DNA from: Metallosphaera yellowstonensis MK1
GTDB taxonomy: Archaea > Thermoproteota > Thermoprotei_A > Sulfolobales > Sulfolobaceae
Assembly (NCBI RefSeq): GCF_000243315.1
Contig: NZ_JH597770.1
Span: 190,794 to 254,793, forward strand
Reading direction: 5' to 3'
Length of the DNA: 64,000 nt
Shown here piece by piece: positions 13,262 through 28,997 of this stretch; positions within the stretch are counted from its first letter, which is position 1, and every line of letters begins with the position of its first letter. Under the pieces are notes generated by a model. That model was not told where the DNA came from. It made no database searches and saw nothing but the letters and a program-made list of their open reading frames with translations. A program made the position numbers and the translations under genes.

Positions 13262-14182
13262 TTAAAGGTATCTCTTCAGTACCGACATGGGGTCTGACAG
13301 GTTCGCCGTAAGCAGTGCCTCCTCAGGGCTGTGACCGAAGGCAAACGCTAGCAACTGAGTGAAGTAAACCAGTGGCATCCTTAGGTCTTTACCGTACTTC
13401 TCAGCTATCTTGTTCATGTTGGTCTCTATGGCGACGTGACCTAACGGGCAGTCCGTTATTAGGAGTTCTGCACCATTCCGCTTGGCCTCCTTGAGTATCC
13501 TAGCCTCAAGGTGTAAGGAAGTTGGGAGATCAGAATACACATGAGGACCTCCACAGCATATGGTCTTAGCTTCGAAGGGTACTACCTCCGCTCCCAGGGC
13601 AGTGAGTAGTTCATCCATGAAGACTGGTCTCTCCGGGTCGTCCTTCAGTTTCATGTATCCAGTGAGCGTGTATGCCTTTGGCCTCGTGTAGAGACATCCG
13701 TAATAGGGAGCTACCTTAAGCCCGGCGAGGGGTCTCTTGACTCTTGCCTTAACTCCCTCGGGCCCCACAGTATTGTAGATGAATTCCACTGCATGTATCA
13801 TGAGGAGTTGCATGTCGTACTGCTTCTCACCCATTTTCTCCAAGTAAACGTTAACCTTCTCTCTCAGTTTCGGATACCTGGTCATGAAGTACTGAGTCCT
13901 CGACAGGGAGTAATGACAACCTGGACAGGCTGACATGACTGCGTTAGCTCCCATCTGCCTAGCTAAGGAGAGGTTCCTCGCAGGTAAGAGTAGTCCTGCC
14001 ATGGTATTCACGTTCTTGACCTCGAGAGCTCCACAGCAGTTATAGTCGTCTATCTTCTCGTACTCTAGTCCCAGATCCCTGGTCACAAGTTGCAACGTTA
14101 CGTCATATGCCTTACCGAGCCCGTCCAGAGCGCATCCCGGGTAGAGGGCTACCTTGCCGTATGGGTTAATGGTCTGGGTCAC
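13262..14182 (-). CDS. hdrB2: sHdr complex subunit HdrB2
   Basis: 306 aa, cytoplasmic. Two CCG domains. The first has C17, C49-C50, C86 and C89 (PGCALD, NCCG, CPGC). The second has C163, C209-C210 and C245 (YGCLY, ICCGGP, CPLG); the last Cys expected of a C-x-x-C is Gly here. HdrB subunits carry non-cubane [4Fe-4S] clusters that handle disulfides; in sHdr they are thought to act on protein-bound sulfane sulfur. The start ATG overlaps the hdrC2 stop (ATGA), so the two are translationally coupled. Last gene of the operon. Confidence 0.9.
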
Positions 14183-14871
14183 TCTGGAACCACCTCCTCC
14201 TTCATTGCCTCCTCCAACACAGGCTTTATTCTATCCCAGTTCTTCACCCTGTTGGGTTTCATGAGGTCCTTTATCAGGCCTGACTTCATGAGTGGTCCCA
14301 TCATGGTTATCAGATCCCTTAAGCTCATGGTCACAAAACCGGCCTTAGCTGATGCCCCTCCCAAGAGGAGTTCACTTATTCTCCCACCGTTCTTCATCAC
14401 AGTCTCCAGGAAGAGCTCGTCAAAGATCGTTCCTGGATCCCTTTTGACCAGACCATGCTTAAGAAGATAATTATGGATAGAGTGTACCACCTCCTCCACG
14501 AGTACTCCCTTGGGACACCTGTGAGTACACTTTTGGCAGGACACGCATCGCCACAGACTGTCCTGTAACTCTATCAGTGCCTGTTTATCGCCTTTCCTGG
14601 CTAGATCTATGAATCTCCTAGGACTGTAGTTGGGGTCATATTCTCTCATGGTACACCCAGAGGTACAGGTACCACATTGCCAGCACAGGCTTATGGTAGC
14701 TCCCTCAATTGTGTTGGCTATCTCGTCCCAGACGCTTTGGTCATAACCCGTCTGAGTCCTCTCTATCATGAATGCATTCCATGTTCCGTCTAACTCCACT
14801 CCGTCCACAATTACCTTATCCTTTTGGATTAGACCTTTTATGATTGGTTTTTCCAGATTAGGTATGGGCAA
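14179..14871 (-). CDS. hdrC2: sHdr complex subunit HdrC2 (two [4Fe-4S] clusters)
   Basis: 230 aa. Two ferredoxin motifs: C63-C66-C69-C73 ([11 protein letters not shown]) and C109-C112-C115-C119 ([11 protein letters not shown]), each followed by a Pro or Met position as in HdrC. It should pass electrons between the HdrA flavin and the HdrB2 catalytic clusters. The 5' end overlaps the hyp gene by 14 nt and the 3' end overlaps hdrB2 by 4 nt. HdrC of methanogens has the same two-cluster core; the ~60-residue N-terminal extension is typical of this paralogue. Confidence 0.9.
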
Positions 14872-15577
14872 GTTTTATCACCTTGAGATATGGTTTCAGG
14901 CCCATAACCAGGGCCGTGGTCGTGAGGTGCGTGGGTATCAACCCCGCGGCCTTCTTATCCACCGCGAGGTGGGTCGTGTAATCTAAGTACCTCACGTACG
15001 CGTAAACGAGAAAAATTGAAGTGGAGTAATAGTTACCTCCTGAGGAGAGACCGAAGATCTCCAGGATCCTCCTCAATTCATTGATAGCTGAGAGGAATTC
15101 ACCCTCGTTCTTCAGTGTCACACCGTCCTTTAGCACGTAATTTATGGAACCCGTGTTTCTGCTGGGGTTCCATATCCATCTCGTCCAGAGCGGATAAGAC
15201 TCCGGCTCCAGATAGTGGATTACCTCCTTGGCCAGATCCTCCATGTCCTCTTGATCTCCGCCCTTAACCCTTGAGGTGAACTCCGCTATTCTCTCCCCGT
15301 ACTCCTTTTCTCTCTCCTTCAGCACAAGGAAAGCTTGTCTAAACGAGGGGAGACCAGTCTTGGCGAGAACGTCACCGAAGTGTTTCTTGGCGTAAAATAC
15401 GGACTCGAAGATCTTCTTCATCTCCTCTTCTGAACTTACCTCTGTCTCCCTCAGGAACTTTGACTTAAGCTCCATGGCCTCCATTATGAGCTTCAAAGAC
15501 TTCTTGGCGTCCCCAGAAGCCGTGTTATTTACGTCAACGTTGAGCATAGCGTTGAATATTTCCCTCACGTAATCCAC
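14858..15577 (-). CDS. Conserved sHdr-cluster protein of unknown function
   Basis: 239 aa from GTG 15577, helical, with no Cys and no membrane segment. It occupies the place between hdrA and hdrC2 where sHdr clusters of sulfur oxidisers normally encode a conserved hypothetical protein, and I identify it by that position and length rather than by a motif. A Trp-rich patch ([11 protein letters not shown], about 147-157) is notable. It overlaps hdrC2 by 14 nt and is 16 nt from hdrA, so it is probably a component or assembly factor of the complex. Confidence 0.8.
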
Positions 15578-15593
15578 GTTTAAAAAAGTGGAA

Positions 15594-16691
15594 CTAATGA
15601 TGGGTCACCTCGATTCTCTTCTTCGCGAAGTCAGATTCGTCCCATATGCCTCTAGTTACGTACTCATATGCCTTCATGGCCGCTGCGTAGCCTTCAGTAA
15701 TGGAGTCTGATATCGTCTTGGGACCAGTTATGGCTCCTGCCAAGAATATTCCCTTCCTGGTGGACTGAACCGGTAGCCTGTCTGGATCCAGAGGTTTGAC
15801 GAAACCATGCTCTTCAAGCTCCAAGCCTAACGTTTTAGCGACCTGTTTCGAGCCAAGACCTAACTCCATACCATTGGCTAAGATCACCATGTCGTAAGGA
15901 ACTACGAGGGCCCTGTTGAGGTTCATGGTATCCTCGCCCTTTATTATAACGGTATCGTTGGGACCTCTCATGAACTCTGAGATCCTGCCCCTGATGTATC
16001 CTACCCTATACTCTAACTGCGACTTCCAGTACAATTTGTCTTCCATGAGCCCGTAGGTCCTTATGTCCATGTAGTAAATATGAACCACTGCGTCTGGAAC
16101 CCTCTCCTTGATCTCCATGGCCTGTTTCGTGGAGACCGCACAACAGACCCTAGAGCAATAGGTATTCCCTACCGTAGCGTCCCTGGAACCCACACACAGC
16201 AGTATGGCCACCCTCTTTGGAGGTGTGCCCTTAGTCGTCACCAGCTTGTTCTCCGATAACATCCTCTCTATGTCAGATATCTGATAGATGTTAGGAATGA
16301 TGCCGTAACCATATTCATATTTCCTCCTGGAATCGAAGTGCTCAAACCCAGAGGCAGCTATGACGGCGTTAACTTTCTCGTTAACTATCTTACCTGATTT
16401 GTCCTTAATGGAGACCGTGAATCCCTTATCCTCCTCCTTTATCCCCTCCACTATACTCTCCATGTAAGTCTTGACCCCACTGTTCTCTACTCCCTTGATG
16501 AGGGGATCCAGTACCTCACTTGCAGGTCTCAGTTCTGGAAAGAGTAAGCTGTACTTAAGTTTCTTTGGGGTACCTCCCAGGTAGGACTCTCTCTCCACCA
16601 GGACTACGTCCACTCCCATGTTCCTAAGTTCCTTGGTAGCTGAGAGACCAGCTGGACCCGAACCTATCACGAGAACCTTTTCCCCGGCCAA
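15594..16691 (-). CDS. hdrA: sHdr complex flavoprotein HdrA
   Basis: 365 aa from TTG 16691. A Rossmann FAD motif at about 6-18 (VIGSGPAGLSATK) and a C-terminal FAD-binding segment (GIFLAGAITGPKTI) are present. A Cys-rich segment at about 164-184 (LLCVGSRD, YCSRVCC) is the HdrA signature for an Fe-S cluster. It lacks the extra ferredoxin modules of methanogen HdrA, as is usual for sHdrA. It is the electron-collecting hub of the complex; NAD is the suspected acceptor. The TTG start is preferred because the GxGxxG begins right after it. Confidence 0.9.
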   Translation of the reverse strand: MAGEKVLVIGSGPAGLSATKELRNMGVDVVLVERESYLGGTPKKLKYSLLFPELRPASEVLDPLIKGVENSGVKTYMESIVEGIKEEDKGFTVSIKDKSGKIVNEKVNAVIAASGFEHFDSRRKYEYGYGIIPNIYQISDIERMLSENKLVTTKGTPPKRVAILLCVGSRDATVGNTYCSRVCCAVSTKQAMEIKERVPDAVVHIYYMDIRTYGLMEDKLYWKSQLEYRVGYIRGRISEFMRGPNDTVIIKGEDTMNLNRALVVPYDMVILANGMELGLGSKQVAKTLGLELEEHGFVKPLDPDRLPVQSTRKGIFLAGAITGPKTISDSITEGYAAAMKAYEYVTRGIWDESDFAKKRIEVTHH

Positions 16692-16735
16692 ATTCCCACT
16701 CTCGCCTCTTTTTTAATAAAAATAATTAAAAAGGT

Positions 16736-18076
16736 TTACTTAGAGCTTGTTGACTTCTGTCCCTCACCCTTATACCACTTCACTCTCTCTGGTACTGAGA
16801 GGTAGAAGTCGATCTTCCTGTGGGGCTTGTACAGATACTCTGGTTCGGCCTTTCCTTCCCTTAGGTCTGCCAAGTATTGAATGAACTTCTCCTTATAGTC
16901 GTCAACGTCTACCCCTATCTTTCTCATGAAGCCCTCTACGTCAGTGGCGTGCCAGTGAATCTGTGCTATCTTATATGGATCTGCACCCATAGCGATAGCG
17001 GCGAACTGTGCGTCGGCCAGAACCGGGAGGTTATAGTTGAATCCATGAGCCTTGCCGGCCCACTGGCTCTTATCTAACGTGGTTACACATCCTGTGTCTG
17101 AGGTAACGAAGACGTCTGCCTTCCCTTCCTCAACCGCAGGGATGACCTTCTTGAATAGGGCGAAGCTTCTGGAGAACTCCCTCTCAGTCAGGATGTGCCT
17201 AAAGCCGAAACCGCAGCAGTCCCACCAGGTCGAATAATCCACTAACTTGGCTCCGAAGTTCTGTACCGTCCCACTTGGAGCAGCTGGTCTTCTCCCCTGG
17301 AACACATCGGGGTCATATATGGTGTCCTCAGGGACGAGCTTGTACACGTGACACGGTGTGTGAACGGCTGCCCTCACCTCGTTCAGGTTATACTTCCTCT
17401 GTTGTGCGGCCTTCTTGCTCATAGTGTAGAGCCACTCAGAGTAGTGCACAACTTCCTCTGGGATGACGATGTCCATGTCCATCTTCCTCATTATGGGCCT
17501 TAACTTCTCCCTGATCTCCTTGTGCAAAACCAACATGTTCCTGATTTCCTTGTAGTGACCGAAGGAAGTTCCACAGTGTATTAGCGGGAAGTAATCTATC
17601 TCGTATGCCCTCCACATGTTCCTAACGTAAACTCCAGCTAGAGCTACTGGGTTGGAAGCACCAGACGCGTGGTAGTTCCAGCCCGTACAGGAGGTCTGAT
17701 GTGGTTCGTCCATGTAGTCTACTTCCATCTTGTTCATCATCCAGAAGACCGAAGTGGGATAACCGGGTATGTGACCACACTGTCCACAGCTCTTGTGTTG
17801 CCACAGCCTTGTCGTAGGAATGACCTTGGGGAAGCCGTTCAGGGTTTGCATCTTTACAGGATTGTTATAGGGCTTAATGTGATGTATTATTATCTCCCCC
17901 TTGTCTTCTAGCTTGTACAGTTCCTCCTTCACGTGGTTTAATCCGTGGGGAGTACTATACCTATATATTATCCTCTGGTAAACCTCGTTCCAATCCATGG
18001 TATCTGTCATGGGGAAGGCTTCCTTTATGCCCTCCTCTATCTTCTTATCTACCTCTTGAGCTGACAAACTATGCAC
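16736..18076 (-). CDS. hdrB1: sHdr complex subunit HdrB1
   Basis: 446 aa from GTG 18076, longer than a canonical HdrB. Cys motifs: C97/C100 (SCGQCGH), C130 (TSCTGW), a mid-protein PCHVYK, WDCCGFG and TGCVTT, consistent with one canonical and one modified CCG domain. A TATA-like caatatataatg lies ~20 bp upstream on the minus strand (about 18083-18094), so it may be transcribed separately from hdrC1, 134 bp upstream. With HdrB2 it forms the pair of catalytic subunits in sHdr. Confidence 0.9.
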   Translation of the reverse strand: MHSLSAQEVDKKIEEGIKEAFPMTDTMDWNEVYQRIIYRYSTPHGLNHVKEELYKLEDKGEIIIHHIKPYNNPVKMQTLNGFPKVIPTTRLWQHKSCGQCGHIPGYPTSVFWMMNKMEVDYMDEPHQTSCTGWNYHASGASNPVALAGVYVRNMWRAYEIDYFPLIHCGTSFGHYKEIRNMLVLHKEIREKLRPIMRKMDMDIVIPEEVVHYSEWLYTMSKKAAQQRKYNLNEVRAAVHTPCHVYKLVPEDTIYDPDVFQGRRPAAPSGTVQNFGAKLVDYSTWWDCCGFGFRHILTEREFSRSFALFKKVIPAVEEGKADVFVTSDTGCVTTLDKSQWAGKAHGFNYNLPVLADAQFAAIAMGADPYKIAQIHWHATDVEGFMRKIGVDVDDYKEKFIQYLADLREGKAEPEYLYKPHRKIDFYLSVPERVKWYKGEGQKSTSSK

Positions 18077-18210
18077 CTTCTAACATTATATATTGGTCAG
18101 GGTTAAATACTTTACTTATTAAACATTTTATGTAACTATGAAAGATATTACAATTGTACCGAAACTAGCAAAATAATGGCAAAAAAAGCTTTAGGCTAAA
18201 GGCAAAAAAG

Positions 18211-19053
18211 TTAGAGATCTAACCAACTGTCGGGTAATTCGCTTTCGTCAAGTTCTCCCTTCTCCCACTTCTGCTTTATCTCCTCTAGCTGGGACTTCCT
18301 CTCCTCATAGATGTCCATTATCATGTCGTAAAGGTCCTTGTCTACTCCCTTAAGCGAGTCCATGACACCTGACTCTATCATGATGGTCATCATCTCCACT
18401 GCAGTCTGTAAGGAGGGATGCCAGCCTATATCGGTCCTTTGCATCAGGTCAACAGGTATGGCCTTCCTATAAACGTCCATGTTCTTGGACTCTTCAACTG
18501 CCTGAGGACCCCAGTCTGGGAATGAATCTGGTTGGATCATATCTGGGGTAACTTGGTTGCCCATGGTCAGGACTGTGTATAGGACTCTCCTGTACGGGGC
18601 AAGGATCTCCTTAGCTGAGGGTAGGGCAAACTTTACGGCATACTCCCTGAGGACCATAATGAGTCCTGCAATTTCGTTGTTGAATGGACACCTCATGGAA
18701 CAGGTATAGCATTGGACGCATGCCCACACCTTCTTGTTTGTGAACTCCCATATCTTATCCACCTCGTCCCTCATCATGTACTGTATCATCTCTCTTGGAC
18801 CGAAGTCGTAAAACTTGGCTGCGGGACAACCTGAGGTGCACACTCCACAGTTTAAGCATCCCCTTAGATACTCGTTAAACCTGAAGTCTGACTTCACGGA
18901 CTCCCAGAACTTTATGGCTATCTCTCTATCTTGGGGGTTCAGATTTGATAATAGATTTCTTTCCTCCTCCGGTACAGGTCCCTGTACGTCATAGGCCATG
19001 TCCAGGAACCTGGGGTCGTCCGGGAGTTGTAATATACCCTTAGCTTGAGCCAT
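18211..19053 (-). CDS. hdrC1: sHdr complex subunit HdrC1 (two [4Fe-4S] clusters)
   Basis: 280 aa. Cluster ligands C66-C69-C72-C76 (CLNCGVCTSGC) and C112-C115-C118-C122 (CVQCYTCSMRC). The C-terminal ~150 residues are helical and acidic. First hdr gene of the cluster, 69 bp downstream of tusA. The minus-strand sequence cattattatacgg, about 25 bp before its ATG, may be its own promoter. In sHdr it should pass electrons between HdrB1 and HdrA. Confidence 0.9.
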   Translation of the reverse strand: MAQAKGILQLPDDPRFLDMAYDVQGPVPEEERNLLSNLNPQDREIAIKFWESVKSDFRFNEYLRGCLNCGVCTSGCPAAKFYDFGPREMIQYMMRDEVDKIWEFTNKKVWACVQCYTCSMRCPFNNEIAGLIMVLREYAVKFALPSAKEILAPYRRVLYTVLTMGNQVTPDMIQPDSFPDWGPQAVEESKNMDVYRKAIPVDLMQRTDIGWHPSLQTAVEMMTIMIESGVMDSLKGVDKDLYDMIMDIYEERKSQLEEIKQKWEKGELDESELPDSWLDL

Positions 19054-19122
19054 CTACATCCGTATAATAATGAGAAATGGGGACTTATAAGTTTTGTTAA
19101 AAAAAATCTAAAATAAAATAAG

Positions 19123-19365
19123 TTATTTGGCCCTCTTCACTAGTATCCTAGTCACGCCACCCTGCTGCTGTATATCTAGGATTTGGTGTCCTGTCCTCCT
19201 AGCCCAAGCCTCTATGTCAGGCTTGGCAGCAGGATCTGTGGCCAGAACCTCCAGGACTTCTCCTACGTTTATTTGCTTGATGGCCTTAGCGGTCTCCATG
19301 ACGGGGCCAGGACAATACATCCCTTTTACGTCTAGGGTTTTGGCTATTCTAATCTCCTGCGACAT
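19123..19365 (-). CDS. tusA: Sulfur carrier protein TusA
   Basis: 80 aa. The CPxP motif is at C18-P21 (GMYCPGPVMETAKAI), with the two-layer alpha-beta fold pattern of TusA/SirA. C18 would carry sulfane sulfur or thiosulfonate. It lies 10 bp downstream of dsrE2B and directly upstream of hdrC1. In Metallosphaera cuprina the homologous TusA accepts thiosulfonate from tetrathionate and exchanges it with DsrE3A. It is the likely sulfur donor to sHdr. Confidence 0.92.
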   Translation of the reverse strand: MSQEIRIAKTLDVKGMYCPGPVMETAKAIKQINVGEVLEVLATDPAAKPDIEAWARRTGHQILDIQQQGGVTRILVKRAK

Positions 19366-19375
19366 TTAGATCACC

Positions 19376-19792
19376 TCATATAAAGAGGGTTATACCACCT
19401 TCGGCCCTATCTAAGAAGGTAGCAACGCCCACAACTTCATCCACGAAGTCCGCTAGATCCTCCTTCTTCATGCCGAAGAATTCCATAGTGGTAGAACATG
19501 CGAAAACCTTAACCTCCCCCACATCCTTAGCCTCCTTCACCAGTTGGTGCCACATGGGGAACTTCATTTCTTGCATCCTCTTCATCATCATGGGGCCCAT
19601 CTGCTCGTAGTTCTTGTCTATCTGGGGCTGTGAGCTCATTCCTCTCTTGCTAATTGCGTTCAACCCCCAGAAGGTGAAGAAAAGGTTTACCTCGTATCCC
19701 GAAGCTGCAGCACCTGAAGCCAGGATGCCTACTGGCATAAGCTTATCTACTGTGCCCGAAAAGACGATTATTGAGAGTTTCTTTCCTGCCAA
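19376..19792 (-). CDS. dsrE2B: DsrE-family sulfurtransferase, DsrE2B-like
   Basis: 138 aa from TTG 19792. The sequence FFTFWGLNAI near residue 38 and the single Cys C99 (KVFACSTTM) are typical of DsrE2. There is no transmembrane segment, so it is the soluble DsrE2B type. It is the first gene of the minus-strand operon; a TATA-like ttaatataaa lies at 19811-19820, ~20-28 bp upstream. It probably holds or passes sulfane sulfur between DsrE3A and TusA; the exact role is unproven. Confidence 0.8.
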   Translation of the reverse strand: MAGKKLSIIVFSGTVDKLMPVGILASGAAASGYEVNLFFTFWGLNAISKRGMSSQPQIDKNYEQMGPMMMKRMQEMKFPMWHQLVKEAKDVGEVKVFACSTTMEFFGMKKEDLADFVDEVVGVATFLDRAEGGITLFI

Positions 19793-19810
19793 ACTTTCAC
19801 CAAAATCTCT

Positions 19811-19820
19811 TTTATATTAA
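19811..19820 (-). promoter_or_regulatory. TATA box of the minus-strand dsrE2B-tusA-hdr operon
   Basis: Reads ttaatataaa on the minus strand, about 20-28 bp before the TTG start. The 176-bp divergent space to dsrE3A probably holds the control sites of both operons. Confidence 0.55.
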
Positions 19821-19925
19821 AAATATTTAAGCTTTGTGGTCTTGTTTAATATCTAAAAAATCACTTTAAAATCCTGGGTAGTCTGCTCTAGAGCAGAGCG
19901 AGGAACCACATGAATATGTTTGATA

Positions 19926-19939
19926 AAAAATATAAGTAA
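19926..19939 (+). promoter_or_regulatory. TATA box of the plus-strand dsrE3A operon, with Shine-Dalgarno-like site before the TTG start
   Basis: aaaaaatataagta lies ~35 bp before TTG 19969, leaving room for a short leader that contains gagggagag (19958-19966), a purine-rich site that supports the TTG start. Confidence 0.5.
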
Positions 19940-19968
19940 GCTAAATTAAATAATCCCGAGGGAGAGTC

Positions 19969-20370
19969 TTGGCACAAACTCAAACTGAGCAAACGCAGGA
20001 GGAACAGAAGAAAAAGATACTCATCGTAGTAACGCACGGCCCAGAGGACCTCGACAGAACATATGCCCCTCTGTTCATGGCGTCCATTTCCGCCTCAATG
20101 GAATATGAGACCTCAGTGTTCTTCATGATCAAGGGACCTCTGTTATTGTCTAAGAAGTGGCAGGAAGAAGAACGAAAGAAGGGAGGTAATCCGTTCATAC
20201 ACTTCTTCGATATGGCGAAGGATAACAACGTGAAGATGTACGTATGCGTGCAGAGTCTGAAGGATATGTGCCACATGAATGAGAGCGACGTAGTAGACGG
20301 AGTGGAGCTAGTAGGCGGATCCACACTAATAGACCTCACTCTGGACGCAGACAGAACACTGTTCTTCTGA
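19969..20370 (+). CDS. dsrE3A: DsrE-family sulfurtransferase, DsrE3A-like
   Basis: 133 aa from TTG 19969, placed by the purine-rich site just before it. After a Gln/Glu-rich tail (residues 1-15) comes the DsrE fold, with C93 and C101 ([11 protein letters not shown]), the positions I recall as the reactive and second Cys of M. cuprina DsrE3A. That enzyme takes thiosulfonate from tetrathionate and trades it with TusA. It is divergent from dsrE2B-tusA and overlaps the next gene by one base (TGATG). Confidence 0.82.
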
Positions 20371-21698
20371 TGCCCATGAAATATGATGTAGTAGTGATAG
20401 GAGGAGGCTCTGCTGGGTACGTAGCTGGAAGTGTACTAGCCAGAAACGGTAAGAAAGTTCTAGTAGTGGAAAAAGATAGGTTCGGGGGCGTCTGCGTAAG
20501 GTCCGGTTGCGCCCCCAGTATTTTTTTGTATGATGCCTCTTTTTTCTTAACAAGATTTACGGAGCTTGGAAACTATAAGGGTATCTCCATTGACGTTAAA
20601 GCCAAGGATCCTTTCAAGAAACGTAATGAGGTAGTGGATTACCTTTCAACTGCGGGTGAGAAATTAGTTGAGGACGCTGGAGCAGATGTGATTAAGGGGG
20701 AGGCTAGGATAAGTGGGAATTCATCTCTGTTGATTGATGGAAAGGAGGTTGAGTTCGATCGTGTAGTGATAGCTACAGGTTCGTCACCCTCCTTGCCGTG
20801 TATTAAGGGTGTGGAACAGGGTATCACTGAGGATGAAGCTGTAAACCTGAGTTTCACCCCCACAGATATGGTAGTGATAGGAGGGGGATTCGCTGGTGTG
20901 GAGATAGCACAGTTTTACGCCAGATTGGGTTCCACAGTCTCACTCATAACTAGGGGGAGAATCCTAAAGTGCCTAAGTGAAGATGCTAGGAACGCTATCC
21001 TCACCTCCCTCGAATGGGACGGAGTTAAGGTAATCGAGAACTGTGAACCGAGGGAGCAGGACGGAAAGGTGGTGAAGGCCACTTGCGGAGAGTTGAAGGG
21101 AGAGGTAACGGTTTACGCTACCGGGAGGAAGCCTAACTTTCCCGTGGGCCTCAACCTACTTGACGTGAATTACAACTCTAGGGGAATAGTTACAGACCAA
21201 TCTATGAGGACGAGCAACCCTAAGGTGTGGGCGGCAGGAGACGTGGTAGATAAGGAGAGAAAGGTTGCCCATTCGGCAATGATGGAAGGATTCATTTCCT
21301 CGCTGAATATCCTTGGGAGAGAATTGAGGATAGATCGACTTCCGGTTCCCCACGTGATATATACAGACCCTCAGGTCGCAGTTGTGGGAGATGTTAATTT
21401 GGCAACTTCATTTAGGAGATTCCCAATAAATGCCTCAACGAGGGCAATAATTTATGGACTCACCGAGGGATACACGAAGCTTGGCATCGACAGAGAGAAT
21501 AGGGTTGTGTACGGAGAGGTAGTTTCGAATAATGCAGAAGAGATAGTTAATCTTCTAGTACTCGCGATCAAGTTGAGGATGAAAGTCGAGGAACTAGCGT
21601 TGCTTCCCTTGGTCCATCCTTCAGTTTCGGAAGTAATCTCTAATGCTGCTAGAGCTTTCTTAAACCTCGATGTTGATGTATATAGGGAGAAAAGGTGA
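20370..21698 (+). CDS. Dihydrolipoamide-dehydrogenase-like flavoprotein disulfide reductase
   Basis: 442 aa. FAD motif GGGSAGYVAG at 11-20, redox-active C42-x4-C47 (GGVCVRSGCAPS), NAD motif GGGFAGVE mid-protein, a second FAD motif (WAAGDVV) and the C-terminal catalytic H416-E421 (VHPSVSE). All parts of an active Lpd-type enzyme are present. sHdr uses a lipoate-binding protein as sulfur carrier, so this enzyme may reoxidise dihydrolipoyl or persulfide intermediates and feed NADH. A lipoate-binding protein gene is not in the window. An ATG six bases downstream is an alternative start. Confidence 0.85.
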   Translation: MPMKYDVVVIGGGSAGYVAGSVLARNGKKVLVVEKDRFGGVCVRSGCAPSIFLYDASFFLTRFTELGNYKGISIDVKAKDPFKKRNEVVDYLSTAGEKLVEDAGADVIKGEARISGNSSLLIDGKEVEFDRVVIATGSSPSLPCIKGVEQGITEDEAVNLSFTPTDMVVIGGGFAGVEIAQFYARLGSTVSLITRGRILKCLSEDARNAILTSLEWDGVKVIENCEPREQDGKVVKATCGELKGEVTVYATGRKPNFPVGLNLLDVNYNSRGIVTDQSMRTSNPKVWAAGDVVDKERKVAHSAMMEGFISSLNILGRELRIDRLPVPHVIYTDPQVAVVGDVNLATSFRRFPINASTRAIIYGLTEGYTKLGIDRENRVVYGEVVSNNAEEIVNLLVLAIKLRMKVEELALLPLVHPSVSEVISNAARAFLNLDVDVYREKR

Positions 21699-22036
21699 AC
21701 CTGAAGGAATATCTTGAAAAGAAGAACTTCCGATATCGAGTTAATGAAGGTATAGAGGAGATCTACATGGACGACTATGTATTCTACATCAAGAACAACA
21801 CTCTCCACATCCCTATTCCCCTTCCCACTGGAAGAGAAAACCTTGATGAACTAGTGACCATGGGGACGTTTTACGCTAGGGCCTCGAGGCTGGTTCAGGG
21901 ATTGAAGGGGAAGGTCGAGTATGAGTTGAGAGAAACTACTGTGGAAGTCGTAGTTAATTTCACTTGCAGAGAGGAGCTGGAACAGAAACTAATTAATGCC
22001 CTGGAGGGAATTGAGAGTCTGAGGTATTTCATGTGA
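21695..22036 (+). CDS. Small conserved-looking protein of the sulfur operon, function unknown
   Basis: 113 aa from GTG 21695, overlapping the flavoprotein stop (GTGA). One Cys (FTCREEL, about residue 91). No lipoyl-lysine motif is visible, so it does not look like a lipoate-binding protein. I recognise no domain. Tight coupling to the flavoprotein and the CxxC protein suggests a shared pathway. Confidence 0.7.
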   Translation: MNLKEYLEKKNFRYRVNEGIEEIYMDDYVFYIKNNTLHIPIPLPTGRENLDELVTMGTFYARASRLVQGLKGKVEYELRETTVEVVVNFTCREELEQKLINALEGIESLRYFM

Positions 22037-22587
22037 GCTACGATTACGTAATTAGACAATACCTTAAGGCGATCAAGGACATAACGTTACGCCACTGTAA
22101 GGCTTCCGATTTCGTGGAATTTTTCCGAAGTGAATCTATCAGGATAGAAGATGAGGGAAATTGCCAAAAGCCGGAAATACATGTTTATCTCAGTGATGGA
22201 AAGTATTTCTCCTATTACGGGATACCATCTATGAACGAGCTATGGCCTTTCTTGAACGCCTTGGTCCGAGGATCCACCGGTGCAATACAGCTAGACTCTG
22301 AGGAACTGCAGTTGGCCAAGAAGGTTAAAGGTGACATTAAGCTCTTCGTCACACCTGAGTGCACAAAGTGTCCCATTACGGCGGAACTACTGTATCAAGT
22401 CGCCTTAGTCAACAGGAACGTTAAGCTTGAGGTTGTGGACTCCGAGCTCTATGACGATTTAAGCAAGAAATATCGCGTGATGAACGTTCCCAAGATAATA
22501 TTAAATGAAAAAGTGGAAATTCCTGGAGGATTTCCTCCACATATAGTACTTAAGATGTTAGCTAAGTCCAGTGAAGCTACATCATGA
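22033..22587 (+). CDS. Glutaredoxin/thioredoxin-like protein with CxxC
   Basis: 184 aa from GTG 22033, overlapping the previous stop. Residues 1-95 are an unassigned domain; residues ~100-184 have the thioredoxin-fold pattern: DIKLFVTPEC-TKC (C110, C113), the cis-Pro strand VMNVPKIIL and a C-terminal helix. This resembles one half of the archaeal protein disulfide oxidoreductase. It may reduce disulfides or persulfides of the sulfur carriers next to it. The CxxC is well placed, so catalysis is likely. Confidence 0.75.
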   Translation: MSYDYVIRQYLKAIKDITLRHCKASDFVEFFRSESIRIEDEGNCQKPEIHVYLSDGKYFSYYGIPSMNELWPFLNALVRGSTGAIQLDSEELQLAKKVKGDIKLFVTPECTKCPITAELLYQVALVNRNVKLEVVDSELYDDLSKKYRVMNVPKIILNEKVEIPGGFPPHIVLKMLAKSSEATS

Positions 22588-22924: not shown

Positions 22925-25234
<2,310 letters not shown>

Positions 25235-27201: not shown

Positions 27202-27558
27202 ATGACGAATGGAAAGAAATATATAATGCAGTCTCTGGAATCTTTGAAAGCCAAGAAAGAGAGCATAAGGTGTTGCTATAAGATAAGTGAGACCGATGTG
27301 GATTGTCTATTCACTCTTTTGGACCTCAAGGAGCCAAAGAGTTCCTCGGAACTTGCGGAAGTCATGAAGCTAAGTAAGACTACTGTGGAGAACAGTATGA
27401 AGAAGTTAATGGAGCTGGGGCTAGTGAGGAGAATAAAGATAGAGGAGAAGAAAATAGGGAGGCCTAAGTTTGTGTATTCATTAGTTGAAGATTTCTTTCC
27501 GAGAATTAGGGCTGATCTAAAGGATTGCGCGGAAAAAATACTCTCAGCAACTTCCTAA
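27202..27558 (+). CDS. Winged-helix transcriptional regulator (sulfur-region paralogue 1)
   Basis: 118 aa, or 110 from ATG 27226; upstream signals do not decide. A winged helix at about 32-95 has the recognition helix [19 protein letters not shown] and a wing [11 protein letters not shown] short conserved segment [10 protein letters not shown] with two Cys precedes it, and a further Cys (DLKDCAEK) follows. It is clearly related to the regulator at 28004-28399. Cys in these places could sense persulfides or redox state. It overlaps the convergent TusA-like gene by 15 bp. Confidence 0.75.
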
Positions 27559-27816
27559 TTCCTTAACGCTTTTATCCTCCCTGGTATCTTGTCTTGTCTT
27601 CTCAAGGATGAGCGTGTATACACCGTTGTCGTTCTTGTGCTCCAGGATCTTACAATCCATGAGCTTTACGGCCTCAATTATCATTTCATCACACTTAGGA
27701 TCCTTGAAAGTGACCTTAAGTGTTCCACCCTTCATCGTCATCAACTTTGCTGCAACCTTCATGAAGGGCTCAGGACACTCAAGATTAATGAGGTTAAGTT
27801 CCTCCATGCTTTCCAT
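27544..27816 (-). CDS. TusA/SirA-family sulfur carrier-like protein
   Basis: 90 aa; ATG 27816 or 27807. [14 protein letters not shown] holds the CPxP motif at about residue 14, so the sulfur-bearing Cys is present. Other Cys: PKCDEM, MDCKIL and a terminal SC. It is a second TusA-like protein in this window, more distant from the sHdr-linked tusA, and lies between two paralogous regulators. It likely delivers sulfur to another acceptor or signals sulfur status. Confidence 0.8.
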
Positions 27817-27849
27817 CCTTCCTAAAAAAGCTAAAAAGGTTTACAGTTC

Positions 27850-28035
27850 ATGATGCTAATCATGAAAGTAGTCTGTCCAGTTTGTAACAGGCTCTTCGAG
27901 GCCGAATGTACACCGTACCTCCAAAAGTATAACGAGATCACATACTACTTTGACACGGAGATATGTCAGCTGGCATTCTTAAGGGAACCGGAGAGGTTCA
28001 CGTTCAAGTGCCAGAAGTCTTCTGGAAGCTCTTGA
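27850..28035 (+). CDS. Small YHS/TRASH-type metal-binding protein
   Basis: 61 aa; the start may be the ATG four codons in (MKVVCPVC). A CPVC pair near the N-terminus is followed by [19 protein letters not shown], the pattern of YHS/TRASH domains in copper- and mercury-handling proteins, and then CQK. It probably binds one metal ion. It diverges from the TusA-like gene by 33 bp and overlaps the downstream regulator gene by 32 bp at the 3' end. Confidence 0.75.
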
Positions 28036-28399
28036 GCTCACTGGGGGTTAAGGCACTGAAAAGCTTTGCACAATACTCGAAATCCTTGGACATTTTTTCT
28101 ACCAGGAAGTCAGCGTCCACGGCCTTGTAGATATACCTGGGCCTGCCTCCCTTAGATCCCTGATCCTTCACTCTTTCAACGAAGCCTATTGATATTAACT
28201 TATTCACAGATCTGTTTATGGAAGCCTTACTCAGTTTAAGCACTGACGCTAGATCGTCCTCCGTTTTAGGACCTAAATTGATGAGAGCCTTCAGTATTTG
28301 GAAATCGGTGTCAGATATGTCATAACAAAAACTTAATGCCTCGACCAGTCCTACTTCCCTTCCTGAGGGAAGTCTAGCCTTAAGTTTTTGTACTTCCAT
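28004..28399 (-). CDS. Winged-helix transcriptional regulator (sulfur-region paralogue 2)
   Basis: 131 aa. It shares with the regulator at 27202 the segment [16 protein letters not shown], a recognition helix [19 protein letters not shown] and the wing [10 protein letters not shown], plus a late Cys (FEYCAK). It is probably a TrmB/MarR-like DNA-binding protein with conserved Cys as possible sensors. A strong TATA (atttatatata, about 28427-28438 on the minus strand) lies ~30 bp before the ATG, so the transcript is leaderless. Confidence 0.78.
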
Positions 28400-28643
28400 T
28401 CTATCTCACATATTATGTGGTAAAAACGTATATATAAATCTTTGCTTTTTTTAGCAATAAAGAATGACAAGTAAAGCTGATATCTTCAGGAAATTGGAGT
28501 AAAGGCGATAAGATCGTATAAAGATACAACCGCTCGACTTTTCAATCAAACCTCACTCAGATAGTTAAAGCCTGCCTAATTAGAGGGTATAAAATTCCTG
28601 TGCGAAGTTCTTTGAATATGCAAATGTAGGAAAGACGTCCTCA
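28400..28643. other. Intergenic, no gene seen
   Basis: Contains the TATA box of the upstream regulator near 28427-28438. Nothing else recognisable. Confidence 0.4.
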
Positions 28644-28997
28644 TTAACCCCAAAGCCCTTTACGCATGTCCTCCATCTTAGTGGCCAGGGCTATTTGAAA
28701 ATATCTCATAACTTCAAGAGCAAACTTTATGGCCTCTTGATCTTGCATGTTTGCGATTTTCCCTTTAAGTTCATTAACGAATCTAGCCATGTCGTTCATG
28801 GTTTGTTTACTCATCTCGTATTTGGTCAGATCAAGAGCGGAGTCCAGATCCTTCTTCTCCTTTGCCTCCTTTAAGGCCTTGTACATTTTGAGCACAACAC
28901 CTTCTCCCTTTGATCCGAATAGTGCCTCTTCTGGATTTCTGAGCCACCTTGCATAAGTTGCGGCTAATTTTTTGGCCTCATTTTCTCTGCTTTCCAT
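28644..28997 (-). CDS. Helical protein of unknown function
   Basis: 117 aa, all-helical, charged, no Cys, no membrane segment. I recognise no family. Repeated RxFxNxL-type amphipathic stretches (about 70-105) suggest a helical bundle. It is divergent from the queC-like gene with a 35-bp space that must hold both promoters. Confidence 0.65.
   Translation of the reverse strand: MESRENEAKKLAATYARWLRNPEEALFGSKGEGVVLKMYKALKEAKEKKDLDSALDLTKYEMSKQTMNDMARFVNELKGKIANMQDQEAIKFALEVMRYFQIALATKMEDMRKGLWG

Follow-up and report, generated by a model that had tools for sequence, protein, structure and literature searches.

Two Lrs14-family regulators flank a divergent tusA-like/yhs gene pair in an sHdr-linked locus of the Sulfolobaceae

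Judged from sequence, a Sulfolobaceae-specific locus linked to the sHdr genes is made up of two Lrs14-family proteins that flank a divergent gene pair, one member encoding a multi-Cys TusA-like protein (tusA-like) and the other a five-Cys YHS/TRASH-like protein (yhs). The locus is described here from a 64,000-nucleotide stretch of the Metallosphaera yellowstonensis MK1 genome, referred to as the window, and from related genomes. It is quite possible, although short of probable, that the Cys pair of the two regulators (reg1 and reg2), together with tusA-like and yhs, constitutes a thiol-switch module near sHdr. The relevant features of the window are as follows.

13262-22587: sHdr block, consisting of hdrB2, C2, hyp, A, B1, C1, tusA (19123-19365), and dsrE, then a divergent DsrE-family gene, a lipoamide dehydrogenase-like gene, and a thioredoxin-like gene
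27202-27558, forward strand: reg1, Lrs14-family winged-helix regulator of 118 aa in the clade of S. tokodaii PDB 2D1H, with C24, C25, C35, and C109
27544-27558: 3′ overlap of reg1 and tusA-like, 15 nt
27544-27816, reverse strand: TusA-like protein in which four Cys are conserved, one of them in a C-terminal -GSC/-GGC tail (PF01206 and ortholog alignment)
27808-27861: divergent tusA-like/yhs promoter region, 54 bp between conserved start codons
27831-27837, forward strand: TATA-like CTAAAAA, ~26-28 bp from both the tusA-like and yhs start codons
27850-28035, forward strand: YHS/TRASH-like mini-protein whose five Cys are invariant and spaced as CPVC-x7-C-x18-C-x14-C (PF04945 below cut-off, alignment, model and fold matches)
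28004-28035: 3′ overlap of yhs and reg2, 32 nt
28004-28399, reverse strand: reg2, Lrs14/Sta1-family winged-helix regulator of 131 aa, with C25 and C110 (NF053606, NF040939, tree)
28442-28457: palindrome TTGCT-N6-AGCAA, a candidate autoregulatory operator upstream of the reg2 BRE/TATA
28644-28997, reverse strand: conserved, all-helical 117-aa protein, a constant neighbour of reg2 or yhs

The four ORFs of a preliminary description of this DNA, two Cys-bearing regulators placed around tusA-like and yhs, were all found in position, and the proposed order of regulator > < tusA-like, yhs > < regulator is borne out at 27202-28399. Both convergent pairs overlap in the window, as had been claimed, and the C-Y-x-I-S-x-T-D motif, GRP wing, and late Cys said to be common to the regulators can be read in both translations. 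Every one of the 22 intact cassettes has a reg1/tusA-like overlap of 15 or 18 nt, and the 3′ ends of yhs and reg2 overlap by 23-32 nt in some genera and lie 11-76 nt apart in others. Ortholog alignment favours later starts for the two divergent genes, at 27807 for tusA-like and 27862 for yhs, and these conserved starts are probably the true ones. From them, the divergent region is 54 bp long, and the intergenic span first given as 27817-27849 is corrected to 27808-27861.

Genomic co-occurrence, the check suggested in the preliminary description, finds the four genes together and in this exact order in 22 of 31 Sulfolobaceae genomes. Dispersal of the genes in most genomes coupled with a lack of Cys conservation, which had been named as evidence against a switch, was not seen, both Cys being present in 72/72 proteins of the reg1 and reg2 clades. 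Among the nine other genomes, reg1 alone is missing from the site in two and the cassette is broken or partly absent in seven. Of the 29 genomes with a tusA-like gene, 24 place it 6.5-13.2 kb from the sHdr tusA; the remaining five comprise one draft genome with the genes on different contigs and four with the genes far apart. As for the proposal of a sulfur- or metal-responsive switch, its sulfur half has a context in most genomes, where the sHdr-DsrE-TusA block has the cassette at its edge, whereas nothing specific to metal sensing was found.

Most loci compared keep a common order of sHdr genes, DsrE, lipoamide dehydrogenase-like, DUF1641, deacetylase-like, CoA-binding, the cassette, the helical protein, and a QueC-like gene. 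Synteny thus extends over the whole block and is not limited to the cassette. A control locus, the neighbourhood of a Sta1-like paralogue, is conserved in 9/11 genomes and is thus about as syntenic, which makes linkage a poor guide to function; it was rejected as proof of a functional unit. The linkage to sHdr is real, yet no greater than expected for the family. These observations favour a possible, though not probable, alternative: that the four genes are passive neighbours whose order is conserved across the entire sHdr-to-queC block, the regulators being ordinary Lrs14 nucleoid or stress proteins with a Cys pair used for dimer stability or general redox sensing. The yhs-reg2 adjacency, kept by 26 of the 30 yhs-bearing genomes, counts against it to the extent that in two genomes (G004 and G021) the pair lies away from the sHdr genes.

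Several members of the block and its surroundings deserve mention in their own right. The 117-aa helical protein at 28644-28997 lacks a Pfam match and adjoins reg2, or yhs/tusA-like where the cassette is broken; its model has a pLDDT of 92.9 and returned no significant PDB match. A histone-deacetylase-family gene (24173-25234) is a constant member between sHdr and the regulators, and acetylation of Lrs14-type proteins has been reported as a possibility. The sHdr block also encodes, at 22955-24208, a DUF1641 protein that is long and repetitive; in broken cassettes, its relatives occur near reg1 or tusA-like. The Sta1-like paralogue, which has the same Cys pair, resides beside apparent terminal-oxidase genes in most genomes (L250 1750-6328), another redox context.

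The motifs of the two regulators read CCYKISETD ... IGRPKF ... DCAEK in reg1 and FCYDISDTD ... GGRPRY ... YCAKL in reg2. Both proteins exceed the cut-offs of the Lrs14 (NF040939, 90 bits) and Sta1 (NF053606, 80 bits) models, with 123.6 and 80.6 bits, respectively, for reg1 and 131.6 and 133.5 bits for reg2; ArsR models score below the Lrs14/Sta1 and TrmB models in each case. PDB 2D1H is matched by reg1 (E 1.1e-32) and reg2 (E 9e-17), and reg2 also matches the Lrs14-like PDB 6CMV (E 5e-10). We take 2D1H to be ST1889, on which a literature search returned no relevant paper. The GRP wing motif, scored by eye, is present in 109/110 aligned family sequences, the exception reading GRR. In passing both cut-offs, matching 2D1H, and carrying this wing, reg1 and reg2 resemble Lrs14, Sta1, AbfR1, AbfR2, and ST1889; by sequence they are members of this known Sulfolobales family, but of two different deep clades.

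Five groups emerge from a tree built on 110 Lrs14-type proteins of 31 family genomes, in which many forks are weak: reg1, reg2, D1 (Sta1-like), A (AbfR1-type), and C (AbfR2-type). The names A, C, and D1 are our presumption from gene position and locus tags, and these three groups were sampled from fewer genomes, reg1 and reg2 being drawn from all 31 where listed. The Lrs14 model gives its top scores to the reg2 clade; for example, L029 of genome G017 scores 136.0 bits versus 122.7 bits for reg1 of the same genome. SSO1108 is the protein named “Lrs14” in a published account (PMC3518317), and we infer that reg2 is the ortholog of the founding Lrs14. In six genomes of two genera (G018, G019, and G027-G030; L083-L088), a second reg2-type gene occurs at the opposite end of the sHdr cluster, such that two reg2-clade regulators bracket the block; the cassette copy belongs to a subclade separate from that of the second gene.

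The Cys pair, C25 and C110 in reg2 numbering, is conserved in 35/35 reg1, 37/37 reg2, and 13/13 D1 Sta1-like proteins (85/85 over the three clades), and reg1 has additional Cys at position 24 (35/35) and position 35 (27/35). Both residues are missing from 7/7 AbfR1-type and 18/18 AbfR2-type proteins, a difference that probably reflects joint loss in these two groups. Outside the family, 20 homologues were taken from the 37 genomes of other Thermoproteia families with a match, and 19 of these have both Cys and one has only the second. The pair is therefore ancestral and older than the cassette, and the idea of a cassette-specific adaptation was rejected (a co-loss test on the tree, with few independent changes, spoke neither way); its invariance in the non-cassette Sta1-like clade, together with the 19/20 homologues beyond the Sulfolobaceae, indicates that it did not arise for TusA. 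An ancestral pair suits passive neighbours with general redox regulators. So do two reports on relatives: AbfR1 of M. sedula binds DNA widely and has a dimer disulfide that involves another Cys (PMC12529230), and two Lrs14 paralogues of S. acidocaldarius, saci_1242 and saci_0133, increase during starvation (PMC6335949). Against a purely structural role, the AbfR1 and AbfR2 clades do without the pair, so the fold does not need it.

The TusA-like protein is a clear member of its family (PF01206, E 1.4e-15, 57.3 bits versus a cut-off of 28.6) and, among 229 genomes of the class, was found in 29 Sulfolobaceae plus three weak matches in others. Among the 29 orthologues, the CPxP Cys and the second Cys are invariant, the third is present in 27, and the C-terminal Cys in 28. 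The sHdr-cluster TusA (Mcup_0683 type) likewise belongs to the TusA family and has the CPxP active-site Cys, but it contains this one Cys, whereas the TusA-like protein has four that are conserved and a C-terminal tail bearing Cys. That tail occurs in 0/30 other TusA paralogues from the genome stretches examined. Could it be a by-product of the overlap with reg1? This was rejected, as six of the seven orthologues that do not overlap reg1 retain the tail Cys (G001 lacks it). Conservation of the tail Cys and of the YHS Cys independently of overlap is a further point against passive neighbours.

The start-to-start gap between tusA-like and yhs is 47-55 bp in 21 of 24 pairs, the other three being 100, 334, and 513 bp, the last including unknown bases. 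TATA-like elements lie ~25-28 bp from each start, and one genus has two overlapping elements. In P. furiosus, a bidirectional promoter with starts 49 bp apart uses one TBP site for both directions (PMC6640164). By analogy, a single TBP site would appear to serve tusA-like and yhs both ways, on the assumption that both messages are leaderless. The short gap was rejected as a unique feature, with 7/55 crude divergent pairs, a sample that includes some cassette pairs, also having gaps of 40-60 bp.

Upstream of reg2, the palindrome TTTGCT-N6-AGCAAA or a close variant directly abuts the BRE/TATA in three genera, and a fourth has a weaker variant. As a marker of a wider regulon it was rejected: the core occurs at two places in the window's genome, that is, one besides the reg2 promoter; the window itself has one match versus 1.57 expected with one mismatch allowed; and a reversed control pattern also gives two counts per strand genome-wide. 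Searches of the sHdr and tusA-like/yhs promoters did not find it. What commends the candidate site is its conservation at the reg2 promoters of related genomes. Autorepression by Lrs14 via sites overlapping core promoter elements has been reported (PMC12529230), and the placement of the candidate palindrome against the reg2 promoter is consistent with autoregulation of the same kind. The site also bears on a quite unlikely alternative, that both regulators mainly compact DNA and that tusA-like and yhs have unrelated thiolation or zinc roles. The Lrs14-family protein AbfR1 does act as a nucleoid protein (PMC12529230), but a specific conserved palindrome suggests sequence-specific control, and the reg1 and reg2 clades are distinct from that of AbfR1.

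The YHS protein matches PF04945 with an E of 5.2e-5 and 23.6 bits, under the gathering cut-off of 30.3, and its five Cys are present in 30/30 orthologues. An AlphaFold model (pLDDT 83.5) gives weak matches to YHS-like domains, the best being to a single region in toluene/methane monooxygenase hydroxylases (Foldseek E 0.06, VIA Z up to 6.2) and to L24e-type ribosomal proteins, both of which we presume to be YHS/TRASH domains. Close orthologues (E <= 2.4e-31) are confined to 30 of the 229 class genomes, every one from the Sulfolobaceae; a further 44 genomes yielded weak matches of E 2.3e-9 or worse. A cassette for metal stress, with the YHS/TRASH protein and the regulator Cys binding Zn, Cu, or similar, would fit a YHS-like fold and the five-Cys pattern and has a loose parallel in a distant archaeal contig (G050, L201 3809-5541), but it is very unlikely, as neither the cassette nor the conserved block showed a recognisable metal transporter or ATPase, two regulator Cys without a His/Cys cluster make a poor metal site, and the distant contig holds different families. 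That contig, which carries in a row a standard YHS gene, a fragment resembling a copper ATPase, a gene for TusA, and one for an HTH protein (the ATPase-like and HTH names being read off the sequence by the analyst), was not taken as an instance of the cassette; it represents an independent YHS-TusA-regulator neighbourhood.

Under the thiol-switch reading, tusA-like and yhs would be expressed from one bidirectional TATA element, and reg2 would control its own promoter through the palindrome against the BRE/TATA, as the site and the Lrs14 precedent suggest. Cys25 and Cys110 of both regulators would act as a thiol switch, with oxidation or sulfane sulfur altering DNA binding. More speculatively, the TusA-like and YHS proteins may handle the same pool of thiol-bound sulfur (or metal), allowing the locus to adjust to the sulfane-sulfur load beside the sHdr genes. 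A thiol or sulfane-sulfur switch is plausible because of the precedents set by OxsR, the AbfR1 disulfide, and sHdrR/SoxR. A more specific version is unlikely: an archaeal sulfane-sulfur switch, independent of bacterial ArsR-type sensors, in which a TusA paralogue with a flexible Cys tail, helped by YHS, would load sulfur onto or strip it from Cys25/Cys110 of two Lrs14 regulators, which would set expression of the locus and the adjoining sHdr genes.

The closest parallel in layout is found in Hyphomicrobium, where two related two-Cys winged-helix regulators, sHdrR and SoxR, occur in an sHdr locus with a TusA gene nearby; these are reported to hold sulfane sulfur between their two Cys, and TusA is the proposed, unproven donor (PMC12423496, PMC11582611). 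Two Cys are likewise present in reg1 and reg2, but on a scaffold other than ArsR, being Lrs14/TrmB-like, and a sulfur bridge demonstrated in the bacterial proteins corresponds here to Cys known from sequence. OxsR of Haloferax volcanii is a single-domain TrmB-type wHTH protein that needs its conserved N-terminal Cys for function and forms an intersubunit disulfide (PMC9426492). An N-terminal Cys can be read in reg1 and reg2 also. OxsR differs in having one Cys and a hypochlorite response, and in the available portion of that report no TusA or YHS neighbours are described (PMC9426492).

The protein families at this locus are known; the cassette, the Cys-tailed TusA subfamily, and the shared promoter appear to be new. 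The linkage of reg1 and reg2 to TusA-like and YHS genes sets them apart from the Lrs14/Sta1 family as otherwise described, no such link being mentioned in the available part of PMC12529230. A literature search for Lrs14 and TusA together found no paper, although De Kock et al. 2025, covering five Lrs14 clusters, may describe the neighbourhood; sHdr regulators are known in bacteria, and the search found none described for the Sulfolobales. The sulfur-responsive genes of one transcriptome include sirA and a gene for a DNA-binding protein (PMC11323534), but these are not tied to the cassette genes and carry no evidential weight. Should the Lrs14 Cys pair prove to be a switch for sulfur or redox state, a large, abundant family of archaeal DNA-binding proteins with few known signals would gain one, and a role would follow for a TusA subfamily with a Cys tail. 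Either way, four small genes are named, in tractable hosts, that are open to direct test.
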